Assembly: GCA_028821125.1 (NCBI GenBank)
Contig: JAPPHD010000027.1
Location: 1 to 50,577 of the forward strand
Reading direction: 5' to 3'
From: Gammaproteobacteria bacterium
Lineage (GTDB): Bacteria > Pseudomonadota > Gammaproteobacteria > Pseudomonadales > Azotimanducaceae
DNA length: 50,577 nt
Under the pieces are notes generated by a model. That model made no database searches, had not been told where the DNA came from, and saw nothing but the letters and a program-made list of their open reading frames with translations. A program made the translations under genes and the position numbers. Positions 35,972 through 40,333 of the stretch are shown in pieces. Each line of letters opens with the position of its first letter. Positions within the stretch are counted from its first letter, which is position 1.

Positions 35972-36667
35972 CTATCGCTCCACCTGGCCGAGGTTGGCGT
36001 GAATTACAGCACCGTTGACAACCGGGTTCCGAGAGGCCCAGAACAGGGTTTCGGCGATCTCGTCGGGTTCGATGAGCCGGTTGTATGCGGACATGCCGCG
36101 CACCGCGTCCATCGCTTCGGCGGGAACGTGGGTCCTGAGCATCTCGGTGTCGGTGAATCCCGGGCAGATGCAGGCCGTGTGGATGCCCTGACCGGCAAGG
36201 TCCTGGCAGGTTGCGCGCATCATGCCGATCAGTGCGTGCTTGGAGAGCACGTAGGAGAAGCTGTTGGGAACCGCCTTCTCCGCGAGCGTGGAGCCGACGT
36301 ACAGGATGGAGGACCCGGGTTTCATCAAGGGGATCGCGAACCCGTTCAGGGAATTTGGTGCGACCAGGTTGATCTCCAGGGTCGTCCTGAGACTCTCGCT
36401 CGGCGTATGTACGGCGCTGTCGTTGACGAGCCTCGATGCGTTGTGGATGAGGACGACCTGTTCGGCGCCGGCAAGCGTCGTGCGCAGGCATGCACCGACT
36501 GTTTCCAGAAAGTCAGGGGCAGAGAGGTCGCAGGGGATATGGTCGACGGCATCCACCGGACAGGGCCGGCGTGAAAGGTTGACGACGCGATACCCTTCGT
36601 CGGCGAAGCGTTGTGCAGTGTGCAGCCCGATACCGGCACTGGCACCGGTGACCACTGCGCATTTCAT
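35972..36667 (-). CDS. Short-chain reductase coupled to a PTPS-like synthase
   Basis: A 231-residue SDR. The cofactor motif TGASAGIG (8-15) is followed by LSRRP, whose arginines favour NADPH. The catalytic Tyr-Lys lies in FSYVLSKHA. Its ATG overlaps the stop of the upstream PTPS-like gene by four bases (ATGA, 36664-36667), so the pair is made together. By analogy with sepiapterin reductase or FolM, it may reduce a pterin; this is inference from context only. It ends the run that starts with the CULT gene. Confidence 0.85.
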   Translation of the reverse strand: MKCAVVTGASAGIGLHTAQRFADEGYRVVNLSRRPCPVDAVDHIPCDLSAPDFLETVGACLRTTLAGAEQVVLIHNASRLVNDSAVHTPSESLRTTLEINLVAPNSLNGFAIPLMKPGSSILYVGSTLAEKAVPNSFSYVLSKHALIGMMRATCQDLAGQGIHTACICPGFTDTEMLRTHVPAEAMDAVRGMSAYNRLIEPDEIAETLFWASRNPVVNGAVIHANLGQVER

Positions 36668-37233
36668 CGGGCGGCGATTCCGGTTGCGGGATTGTCTCCG
36701 GCGGCAGATTTCTTGATCGACTCTGCAGTCTCACGCTGGAAAATCGATGCTTCCGGCGCAAAGGAGGATTGCGCCCACTGCCCGGCTCCGGATGACACCT
36801 TGACCGTCAGCCTGTGCATGTCCAACGTGGCGATGTCCGGATCCTTGAACAATTCGCCGCCCAACCAGTCCGCCAGGGCTTCCACGGTGATGTTTGCTAC
36901 GGGGAGCGTGAGAACGTCTCTGGGGAGAAACGGGATTCGCTCATCGTCGAAGATGGCGACCGTATATCCCTGCTCCTCTTTGATCGCCAGATGCGGCGAG
37001 CGCCCGGGCAGCAAGGTGCGCTCGTCCAGCCCGTCGCACAGTGTTTGCAGGGTGCGCTTGATCAGGTTGTAGTCGAACGCCAGGCCGTCCTCTCCCACAT
37101 CCGCATCGATGTCAGCGGCCACCTGAAAGTTGTGCCCGTGCAGATTCTCGCGTTCCGTGGCCGAAAAAATCGTGAAGTGGGCCGCGGCGAAGTGCAACGC
37201 TTCCTTGGTAATGCTGATGGTGGTGCGGGCCAT
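36664..37233 (-). CDS. 6-pyruvoyl-tetrahydropterin synthase family protein, PTPS-III-like
   Basis: A 189-residue protein of the T-fold PTPS/QueD family. Zinc ligands are H19 (AAAHF) and H32 and H34 in LHGHN. The catalytic Cys of QueD and PTPS is replaced: the segment reads ERENLHGHN, an ExxHGH motif (E29) that is known from PTPS-III proteins, which can make 6-hydroxymethyl-dihydropterin for folate synthesis. The sequence continues with TSE-like zone VANITVEALADWL. The start is ATG 37233; the longer frame to 37410 is not family-like. Coupled to the SDR. The PTPS-III function is inferred from the motif. Confidence 0.82.
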   Translation of the reverse strand: MARTTISITKEALHFAAAHFTIFSATERENLHGHNFQVAADIDADVGEDGLAFDYNLIKRTLQTLCDGLDERTLLPGRSPHLAIKEEQGYTVAIFDDERIPFLPRDVLTLPVANITVEALADWLGGELFKDPDIATLDMHRLTVKVSSGAGQWAQSSFAPEASIFQRETAESIKKSAAGDNPATGIAAR

Positions 37234-37310: not shown

Positions 37311-38000
37311 TCAGCTCACGGAGTCGGCAAACTCGGCGAGGCTGGTAAAGGTCCAGGTCGGATTGGCTTCGACAGGCCTGGCGGCGCCGAGGGAGGGGCG
37401 GTCGATCCATACGGTGTCGAGGCCGGCGGCGGTGGCGGGGACGATGTCGTGGAAACGGCTCTGGGCGACGTGGAGGACGGGGCTTTCGACCGTCTCTAGG
37501 GCGGCGGCGAACATTGCCGGCGCGGGCTTGTAGACGCCGATCTGCCCGGCCGTAATGACGTGCCGGAAAGGTACCTCCAGGGCTTTCGCCGACATGGCGA
37601 AGAGATCGTCGTCAATGTTCGAAACCACCGCGAGTTCGAAGTGCTCCGAGAGCGTCTTCAGGGCATCGACGGTGTCCGGAAACGCCGGCCACCGCTCGAT
37701 GCTGTCGGCGAATCCCTCCAGCTCGTTGTCCTTGGGCGTGAACGCGAGCCGTTTTCCGAAGCGCTGCAGAACCTTGGACAGCACGGCCCGGTAGGAGCCG
37801 CCTTCAGCCTGGGCTTCCGGCTCGTAGCGGCTGTAGCACTCCAGCACGAACTCGTCGATCACATGCACGTCGTAGCCTTCGAACAGGGGCTTGAGGTAAG
37901 CCAGGATGCCGGTTTCCCAGTCGATCAGGGTGCCGTAGCAATCGAAGGTGAGTGTCCGGTATTTCGCCGGGTCGATGCCGTCGGGTTCGGTGTCAGTCAT
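37311..38000 (-). CDS. HAD hydrolase, haloacid-dehalogenase type II-like
   Basis: A 229-residue HAD-superfamily enzyme. Motif I is FDCYGTLIDW with nucleophile D20, motif II is SNIDDDL, and motif III is YKPAP followed by FHDIVPA. It groups with 2-haloacid dehalogenase-like proteins, although many of these are phosphatases. Its start overlaps the CULT gene stop by 8 nt (37993-38000), so it is translationally coupled to it. Confidence 0.9.
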   Translation of the reverse strand: MTDTEPDGIDPAKYRTLTFDCYGTLIDWETGILAYLKPLFEGYDVHVIDEFVLECYSRYEPEAQAEGGSYRAVLSKVLQRFGKRLAFTPKDNELEGFADSIERWPAFPDTVDALKTLSEHFELAVVSNIDDDLFAMSAKALEVPFRHVITAGQIGVYKPAPAMFAAALETVESPVLHVAQSRFHDIVPATAAGLDTVWIDRPSLGAARPVEANPTWTFTSLAEFADSVS

Positions 38001-38394
38001 GCTGGATCCGGTCGAGTATCAGGCCGTAGAAGAAATCGCTCTCCGAGCCGGGCGTGACCCGGTCGAAATACCAGCCGAGGTGCCGTTGACATTCGCTGCA
38101 GGCAGCGATGCGCCATTGATAGCCCATGAACCAACTGTCGGCCGCCTCGGGCGTGCCCGCGATGCTGCAGCCGAGCGCTTCGCTGAAACAGCCGATGTGG
38201 AAGAGGAAGCCGTACGGGTTGGCAAAACGGTGGTCGTGGCTGCCGGTCACCTCGATGCGGTCGCTGTTCTTGCCGATGACCGTGGAGCAGGTTCCGCAAT
38301 AGATGAAATCCCGAGCCTCTTCCTCCTCGTGTTCGAGCAGGTCCTTGAGTTTGGGGTCGAGCGCTTGACGCTCCTTGTCGACAACATCGATCAT
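37993..38394 (-). CDS. CULT-domain protein, bacterial cereblon homologue
   Basis: A 133-residue protein that is almost only a CULT domain, the ligand-binding domain of human cereblon. Zinc cysteines are C33, C36 (YCGTC) and C99, C102 (CSEC). The aromatic cage is W88, W94 and W108, with N59-P60 and F110. The gaps (N to W 29, W to W 6 and 14, W to F 2) equal those of human N351, W380, W386, W400 and F402, and GYQWRIAACSECQRHLGWYF aligns with the human segment GY-W...C--C--H-GW-F. Bacterial members bind uridine- and thalidomide-like ring compounds; their role is unknown. It is coupled to the HAD gene and divergent from the Tag gene. An unrelated ubiquitin system is not implied. Confidence 0.88.
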   Translation of the reverse strand: MIDVVDKERQALDPKLKDLLEHEEEEARDFIYCGTCSTVIGKNSDRIEVTGSHDHRFANPYGFLFHIGCFSEALGCSIAGTPEAADSWFMGYQWRIAACSECQRHLGWYFDRVTPGSESDFFYGLILDRIQHD

Positions 38395-38421
38395 GGCAAC
38401 CCTTTCCTGAAGGCGCCGGGC

Positions 38422-39090
38422 GTGGACAGTTTCGATAGCATCTTTCAGCGCGCTGCGGAGCGCAAGGGGGGCGAAGCGGCCGTGGAGGGCCTGCTGCCGG
38501 CAGCGGAATCGGCGGCAGGGCTGCGCAGCCTGCCGGACGACCGGGCGCTGTCCGAAATGACCAAGTGCATCTTCCGCTCAGGATTCGTCTGGAAGATTGT
38601 CGAGAACAAGTGGCCGCATTTCGAAGCCGCCTTTCACGGCTTTGACGTCACCCGGTGCGCCATGCTGTCGGATGAGGAACTCGAGGCGCTGGCAGTGGAC
38701 GAGCGCATCATCCGCAATGCGAAAAAGATCCAGTCCGTGCGCAGGAACGCCGCCTTCGTGCTCGACGTGCGCGCGGAACACGGCAGTTTCGGCAGCTATC
38801 TCGCCGACTGGCCGGTCACCGACATCTTCGGTCTTTGGGCCGATATCAAGCGGCGGGGCGACCGGCTCGGCGGCCACACCGGCGGCTATTTCCTGCGCTT
38901 CATCGGCAAGGACACGCCCATGTTTTCCAGCGACGTGGTCAAGGCGCTCATCGAACAGGGAGTCGTCGACAAGGAACCGACCAGCAAGCGGGACCTGGCT
39001 GCAACCCAGGCGGCGTTCAATCAGTGGCGTGAGGAGAGCGGCCGCGACCTGTGCCAGATTTCCCGCGTGCTTGCCTGTTCCGTGCCGTAA
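38422..39090 (+). CDS. DNA-3-methyladenine glycosylase I family protein
   Basis: A 222-residue protein of the Tag-like helix-hairpin-helix glycosylase family, which removes alkylated adenine from DNA. Family segments include ALSEMTKCIFRSGFVWKIVE, DERIIRNAKKIQSVR and KEPTSKRDLAATQAAFNQW. It belongs to the longer branch (about 220 residues versus 187 in E. coli Tag). The GTG start is preceded by GAAGG. Only 27 nt separate its start from that of the divergent CULT gene. Confidence 0.86.
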   Translation: MDSFDSIFQRAAERKGGEAAVEGLLPAAESAAGLRSLPDDRALSEMTKCIFRSGFVWKIVENKWPHFEAAFHGFDVTRCAMLSDEELEALAVDERIIRNAKKIQSVRRNAAFVLDVRAEHGSFGSYLADWPVTDIFGLWADIKRRGDRLGGHTGGYFLRFIGKDTPMFSSDVVKALIEQGVVDKEPTSKRDLAATQAAFNQWREESGRDLCQISRVLACSVP

Positions 39091-39124: not shown

Positions 39125-40333
39125 TCAGAGCAGGGACTTCAGGTCCGTATCCGGGTCGGCCAGGGCTTGTTGGTCCACCGTCCGGCCGATCAGGCGGCGG
39201 CAGATCATGAATTCCTTGGGACTGTTGACAGCGTCCACTGCGGCGATGGCGCCGTCTTTCAGGTGGAAGACGGCGAAACTGTTCGCGGACTTGTCTCCCC
39301 GCAGCACTTCGGTGTCTCCGTCGGCGGCGAAGCCGACCATCTGGAGCTTCAGATCGTACTGATCGGACCAGAACCAGGGTACGGAGGCGTAGACCTTGTC
39401 GCCGCCCGACATGTTGGCCGCGGCTACGCGAGCCTGTTCCATGGCGTTGGGCACGGACTCCAGGCGCAGGCGCCGGTTCAGCAGCGGGTTGGGGTGATTG
39501 GTGCAGTCGCCGGCGGCGTAGATGTTGGGGTCGGCGGTGCGGCAACGGTCGTCGACGACGATGCCGTTGTCGCACGGCAAGCCGGCCTCCGCCGCCAGTT
39601 CCACGTTGGGCACGATGCCGATGCCGACGATGACCAGGTCGGCAGCGAATGTCGATTCGCTGCAAAGTACCTGGCTGACCGCGCCGTTGCCGGCGAAGCC
39701 CGTCACCCTTGTGCCGGTGTGAATGGTCACGCCGCGACCGCTGTGCAGGCCGTGGTAGAACTCGGACATGGCCGGTGTGGTCACCCGTTGCAGTATGCGG
39801 TCTTCCATCTCGATTACCCGGACCTCGAGGCCGGCTTCGATGCAGACGGCGGCCACCTCCAGGCCGATGTAGCCCCCGCCGACCACGGCGACTTTGCGGC
39901 CGGGCGCCATTTCTGCCCGGATGGCATCCACGTCCGCGATGGTCCTGAGATAGTGGATGCCCGCAAGGTCGCCGGTGTCGAGTTGCAGCAGCCGCGGCCG
40001 GCTGCCGGTGGCTAGCAGCAGTTTTTCATAGGAGAGGGAGTCGCCGTCTGACGTGGCGACGGTGTGCGCGGCACGGTCGATGGCTTCAACCCGCACGCCG
40101 GACCGGATGATGACGTTCCGGTCGGCGTAGAACTTTTCCGGGCGCAGGTAGACGCGTTCCAGGCCGTGCTCACCGGCCAGGTACTGCTTTGAGAGCGGCG
40201 GGCGCTGATAGGGAATGTGCGGCTCGTCGCCGATGACGACGATCTCTCCCTCGAATCCTTCCTGACGCAGGCTGGCGGCGGCTTGTCCTCCGGCGTGTCC
40301 TGCTCCTGCGATGATGATTGACGACACCTTCAA
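39125..40333 (-). CDS. FAD-dependent ferredoxin/rubredoxin reductase
   Basis: A 402-residue pyridine-nucleotide:FAD oxidoreductase of the BphA4/ThcD type, which passes electrons from NAD(P)H to a ferredoxin or rubredoxin serving a monooxygenase or dioxygenase. FAD motif GAGHAGG (10-16), NAD motif VVGGGYIGLEVA and the final FAD motif AAGDC are clear. No ferredoxin or oxygenase gene is adjacent. The TTG at 40333 or GTG at 40327 may be the start. Confidence 0.92.
   Translation of the reverse strand: MKVSSIIIAGAGHAGGQAAASLRQEGFEGEIVVIGDEPHIPYQRPPLSKQYLAGEHGLERVYLRPEKFYADRNVIIRSGVRVEAIDRAAHTVATSDGDSLSYEKLLLATGSRPRLLQLDTGDLAGIHYLRTIADVDAIRAEMAPGRKVAVVGGGYIGLEVAAVCIEAGLEVRVIEMEDRILQRVTTPAMSEFYHGLHSGRGVTIHTGTRVTGFAGNGAVSQVLCSESTFAADLVIVGIGIVPNVELAAEAGLPCDNGIVVDDRCRTADPNIYAAGDCTNHPNPLLNRRLRLESVPNAMEQARVAAANMSGGDKVYASVPWFWSDQYDLKLQMVGFAADGDTEVLRGDKSANSFAVFHLKDGAIAAVDAVNSPKEFMICRRLIGRTVDQQALADPDTDLKSLL

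Follow-up and report, generated by a model that had tools for sequence, protein, structure and literature searches.

A Bacterial Single-Domain CULT Protein Encoded with an Azetidine-2-Carboxylate Hydrolase-Like HAD Protein

What do the bacterial relatives of cereblon bind, and with which partner do they act? In the passages concerned, the paper that defined the CULT domain left the ligand open and drew its bacterial members mainly from the deltaproteobacteria (PMC4287342). Natural ligand and role are likewise left open in the corresponding parts of PMC4449219, even though crystallographers often use MsCI4 (MGR_0879), the cereblon isoform 4 from Magnetospirillum gryphiswaldense (PDB 4V2Y and others), in place of the human drug target. 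Thalidomide and uridine both bind to MsCI4 with low-micromolar affinity, and its authors state, where they discuss uridine, that they found no biological context for it (PMC4449219). The window, the whole stretch of 50,577 nucleotides analyzed here, raises the question anew: The original prediction placed in it a CULT domain that stands alone and keeps its thalidomide-type cage intact, made together with a HAD hydrolase and lying next to a pterin-type gene pair. The newer part of what we report is this gene context, above all the coupling to the HAD gene, rather than the CULT domain itself. In the open-access literature, we found nothing pairing cereblon with Magnetospirillum and operon, and cereblon together with haloacid dehalogenase occurred only in work on phosphatases in schizophrenia.

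The Product of 37993..38394 Is a CULT Protein

The gene at 37993..38394 on the reverse strand starts with ATG, has no internal stops, and encodes 133 residues. A phmmer search against the PDB retrieved MsCI4 with an E value of 1.7e-22 and, as the best vertebrate cereblon construct, a match at 2.7e-11; judged by sequence, the similarity to MsCI4 and cereblon is far beyond chance. Profile libraries were less informative, with Pfam returning PF03226 (Yippee-Mis18) alone, at 22.9 bits and thus below its gathering score of 26.6, and NCBIfam nothing at E 0.001. The AlphaFold model has a mean pLDDT of 85.2 and a pTM of 0.72, with the first 30 residues weak and residues 1–9 below 50. When this model was used as a Foldseek query, MsCI4 crystals came out on top with a probability of 1.00 (ligands there being thalidomide, deoxyuridine, and valerolactam; 33–38% identity in the listed alignments), and cereblon entries followed at about 2e-9 to 2e-8 with 23–25% identity. 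The predicted fold is thus a beta-tent like that of MsCI4 and cereblon.

All residues named in the original prediction are present: the zinc cysteines C33, C36, C99, and C102, arranged in two CxxC motifs, the cage tryptophans W88, W94, and W108, and N59-P60 and F110. The spacings given for them are correct by count (N–W 29, W–W 6, W–W 14, W–F 2, C99–W108 9). An alignment of 36 CULT sequences, including the query, showed C33, C36, N59, P60, W88, F89, W94, C99, C102, W108, and F110 to be invariant in all 36, whereas position 92 is occupied by Phe in 18, Tyr in 16, and Cys and His in one sequence each. In human cereblon, the residues corresponding to N59 and F110 are N351 and F402. F110 aligns with Tyr101 of MsCI4, where 4v32, titled a Y101F mutant, has Phe and the other MsCI4 sequences have Tyr. 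The equivalence is confirmed for the cage tryptophans, which in human cereblon (W380, W386, and W400, as numbered in the relevant part of PMC4949186) have the same spacing as in the query.

Like the query, MsCI4 is a single-domain CULT protein with zinc CxxC pairs and a three-tryptophan cage. Human cereblon, in contrast, carries a LON domain and a DDB1-binding region; neither is present in the 133-residue protein, which shows no further Pfam domain at E 0.001, so that it does not qualify as a substrate receptor of the cereblon E3 kind. On sequence and model together, the product is a genuine single-domain CULT protein, of a domain kind already known. The alignment with MsCI4 begins only at query residue 31, the N-terminal segment not being common to the two by sequence. 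Within 11 aligned close relatives (query included), the N-terminal 27 residues are conserved, with V4, D6, L12, P14, and L16 invariant, and residues 14–27 are predicted to form a helix; it is possible that this partly helical segment is a partner-binding element.

A search of the window's own genome for paralogs at E 10 gave this single CULT match, and a scan for promoters and terminators gave signal no greater than in shuffled sequences. A frame antisense to the CULT gene (37948–39090, forward strand) is open into a 3-methyladenine glycosylase gene and misled our home-made gene caller; its recognizable part (residues 206–287) is the glycosylase.

The Overlapping Gene Encodes a Putative Opener of Small Nitrogen Rings

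As originally predicted, the CULT protein is made together with a HAD hydrolase: The start of a HAD type II-like gene (37311..38000, reverse strand, 229 residues) overlaps the CULT stop by 8 bp. The best phmmer match of its product was 3SMV, the L-azetidine-2-carboxylate hydrolase of Pseudomonas sp. A2C, at 2.4e-44. With a model of pLDDT 94.5, the six best Foldseek matches (1e-22 to 1e-24) were three chains of this hydrolase (PDB 3SMV and 8YWO; 38–39% identity), the nearest among solved structures, and 8HP5–8HP7 (30–31%), which are deposited as (S)-2-haloacid dehalogenase and include one structure in which (2R)-4-amino-2-hydroxybutanoate is trapped. The next group, comprising haloacid dehalogenases and cis-epoxysuccinate hydrolases, started from about 3e-15 at 18–25% identity. 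Counted along the phmmer alignments, D20 and K158 correspond to the catalytic D12 and K152, residues that are mutated in deposited structures of the azetidine-2-carboxylate hydrolase/8HP5–8HP7 group, and neither varies in any of the 31 aligned sequences. The nearest NCBIfam model, TIGR01428 (haloacid dehalogenase type II), scored 113.1 bits and thus below its cut-off of 125.4.

The Pseudomonas enzyme converts azetidine-2-carboxylate to 2-hydroxy-4-aminobutyrate, as described in the relevant part of PMC8016842. The HAD protein is thus probably of the azetidine-2-carboxylate hydrolase type, that is, a candidate opener of a small nitrogen ring by aspartate attack. A nucleotide phosphatase was considered and rejected: The YjjG and pyrimidine nucleotidase models scored far below cut-off, Foldseek favors the azetidine hydrolases, and the motif I +2 position, where phosphatases carry Asp, is a Tyr. 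A more distant homolog (E 2e-13, partial) is encoded elsewhere in the same genome.

CULT and HAD Are Coupled within the Family

According to the original prediction, a few bacterial CULT proteins are known structurally. This holds for solved structures, in which the bacterial CULT chains are named cereblon isoform 4 and one MsCI4 sequence alone accounts for 47 PDB entries, but sequences are far more plentiful. Of 200 genomes from the window's family, 94 gave a CULT match (E up to 0.001), as did 50 of a draw of 293 from the order and 18 of a draw of 397 from the phylum; it should be noted that the window's own genome is included in every draw and that the order draw takes in family members. The best 80 of 146 CULT loci lie mostly in assemblies titled Pseudomonadales or Gammaproteobacteria. 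Carriage by phages or plasmids was set aside, as tblastn at E 1e-5 gave no CULT match in either of the two collections.

The HAD gene was found in 62 of the 200 family genomes at a strict cut-off (E up to 1e-30) that selects the azetidine-hydrolase-like subfamily, and 61 of these also encode CULT. In 59 of the 61 both genes lie on the same contig (on different contigs in two), within 139 bp of each other in 56 and 495–2223 bp apart in three. Overlap between the two genes was seen in 17 of 31 loci with an adjacent HAD call, a count resting on the approximate calls of our home-made caller. The reverse dependence is weaker: HAD is missing from 33 of the 94 CULT genomes, CULT from only one of the 62 with HAD, namely G135, in which HAD occupies the same locus and CULT gave no match.

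Fisher's exact test gives P 7e-26 for this co-occurrence, ignoring the relatedness of the genomes. By genus (n = 37), all 12 genera with HAD fall within the 24 with CULT (P 0.0015), a test that counts g9, in which HAD is a weak match on another contig, and g46, whose sole HAD genome is G135. Mapped onto a tree of CULT sequences, the presence or absence of HAD switches 11 times, six or more of these on starred branches, with several long branches unsure and the direction of the changes not inferred. The HAD–CULT linkage may be largely vertical inheritance of one locus. At two loci, L055 and L060, the HAD matches beside CULT are only 59 and 68 residues long and possibly represent decaying copies.

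The Pterin Pair Looks Incidental

The predicted pterin-type neighbors are there, as judged by Pfam and NCBIfam matches. A PTPS/QueD-like protein is encoded at 36664..37233 on the reverse strand (start from the home-made caller; the open frame reaches 37410), and the start of an SDR oxidoreductase gene (35972..36667, reverse strand) overlaps its stop by 4 bp. Further neighbors are a DNA-3-methyladenine glycosylase I-like gene, divergent from CULT (38557..39090, forward strand, start chosen by eye), and a conserved upstream gene for a ferredoxin-NAD reductase-like flavoprotein (39125..40333, reverse strand). In 60 neighborhood loci (L031–L090, of which L080–L084 are from other families of the order), a block of ferredoxin reductase, CULT, HAD, PTPS, SDR, a Vut_1 transporter, and an LLM oxidoreductase recurs, often with the 3-methyladenine glycosylase on the opposite strand between ferredoxin reductase and CULT. 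PTPS and SDR are conserved members of it, and HAD was found by tblastn in 32 of the 60, with fragments in two more.

The suggestion that the pterin pair hints at the ligand is weakened by its distribution. PTPS occurs in 172 of the 200 family genomes (E up to 1e-15), so that at least 78 of the 106 without a CULT match carry it; HAD tracks CULT, whereas PTPS does not, and HAD is the informative partner. With PTPS present with or without CULT, a pterin was set aside as a ligand lead. PTPS is nearest to solved 6-pyruvoyl tetrahydropterin synthases (6e-16), which are Plasmodium proteins, and its QueD score is below cut-off. A FolK cluster (one member scanned) lies nearby in 11 of the 60 loci. Given these relatives and neighbors, the pair would most simply serve ordinary pterin or folate supply, and its position beside CULT looks incidental. 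The neighbor clusters c8 and DUF2244 yielded no functional lead.

CULT Has Other Neighbors in Other Lineages

Among 48 further loci (L163–L210; some are from family genomes, L165 and L172 are the same contig, and several of the contigs are short), tblastn placed HAD directly downstream of CULT only in L168 and L170, both from family genomes; L174 has a weak HAD match of 27% identity at 2.6 kb from CULT. A cluster of RluA-type pseudouridine synthases (one member scanned) is instead found immediately downstream of the CULT gene in 8 of the 40 loci L171–L210, in four other families of the order (L174, L177, L179, L180, L181, L182, L187, and L188). A short rhodanese gene (one member scanned) takes this place in L199, L201, L202, L205, and L206, in three families elsewhere in the phylum, and a Bat-like three-gene set, labeled by eye, precedes CULT in three loci of one family. 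That the partners differ by lineage suggests a portable binder rather than the subunit of one enzyme, and the varying neighbors fit a generic small-ring binder paired with different enzymes.

A Possible Role for CULT and HAD, and Its Rivals

By analogy with the MsCI4 crystals, we infer the ligand class of the CULT protein: As a soluble zinc beta-tent, it would capture in its three-tryptophan cage a small ring with an NH-C=O edge, such as a cyclic imide, a uracil-like ring, or a lactam. It would then bind, sense, or hand on a small nitrogen heterocycle, either a free metabolite or a damaged residue, and the HAD protein, translated with it, would act in the same clearance step. That CULT is a small-ring binder functionally tied to HAD in this lineage is the reading we tentatively prefer, though with somewhat less than even confidence; that the two form a system capturing and opening one and the same small nitrogen heterocycle is doubtful, the shared substrate being a guess. 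Points against the tie include the chemistry, since azetidine-2-carboxylate does not have the imide edge known to be recognized by CULT, and the 33 CULT genomes noted above that do without HAD. The alternatives weighed below are not mutually exclusive.

The tie to HAD could be no more than ordinary synteny, CULT, HAD, PTPS, and SDR sharing a locus by descent with no joint function. The wider block, from flavoprotein to LLM oxidoreductase, does recur across genera, CULT, PTPS, and SDR remain together in many HAD-less loci, and the arrangement was not found outside the family among L163–L210. Descent of a common locus sits less easily with the single HAD genome lacking CULT when PTPS is so widespread, and with g8 and some g50 genomes, which keep CULT and HAD adjacent with PTPS elsewhere; we regard the absence of any joint function as rather unlikely, although a serious competitor. 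A second set of readings concerns the ligand. Low-micromolar uridine binding by MsCI4 and the eight RluA-type neighbors would suit a binder of uridine- or pseudouridine-type nucleosides working with RNA-modification enzymes, as a sensor or accessory, and in L176 the gene next to CULT falls into a cluster of which the member scanned (L184) was identified as a TrmJ/YjtD-family RNA methyltransferase, with the next gene in L084 similar to it by eye. The other 32 of these 40 loci nevertheless lack an RluA cluster next to CULT, and none was recognized among the recurring neighbors in the window's family, where single neighbors were not all named; this reading seems improbable to us.

The CULT protein might, instead, recognize C-terminal cyclic imides of proteins that are damaged or have been modified by PIMT and pass these on for repair or degradation, as in animals, with HAD as a mere neighbor. 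Human cereblon reads such imides and PCMT1 can make them, according to the relevant parts of PMC11974815 and PMC13001092. In the family, PIMT (TIGR00080) is found in 187 of the 200 genomes, and 57 of the 94 with CULT have at least two copies compared with 19 of the 106 without. The same direction is seen within some genera, where two or more copies occur in 4/8 genomes with CULT versus 0/26 without in g35, 3/3 versus 0/1 in g13, 3/4 versus 0/1 in g16, and 2/5 versus 0/2 in g46; a DegP-type protease cluster (labeled by eye) also lies in 12 of the 60 family loci, several genes off. However, g9 and g31 run the opposite way, CULT genomes are larger on average, and across genera the association is gone (PIMT copy number vs. 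CULT, rho -0.06, P 0.7), the second PIMT copy following HAD only (rho 0.45, P 0.005), as it does once genome size is included in a logistic model (CULT z 0.9, HAD z 4.0). The evidence for PIMT as the writer of imides for CULT is therefore mixed, with an association at the genome level and in some genera and none across genera, and we consider an imide reader with HAD as a bystander unlikely.

If the two did form such a system with a shared substrate, the natural ligand of bacterial cereblon would be a cyclic compound, toxic or damaged, that the enzyme encoded in the same operon clears, and bacterial cereblon would gain a partner gene as well as a function in the cell. A tightly coupled partner, catalytically intact as judged by its conserved residues, gives a concrete lead to the ligand and would reduce the question to a small number of assays.
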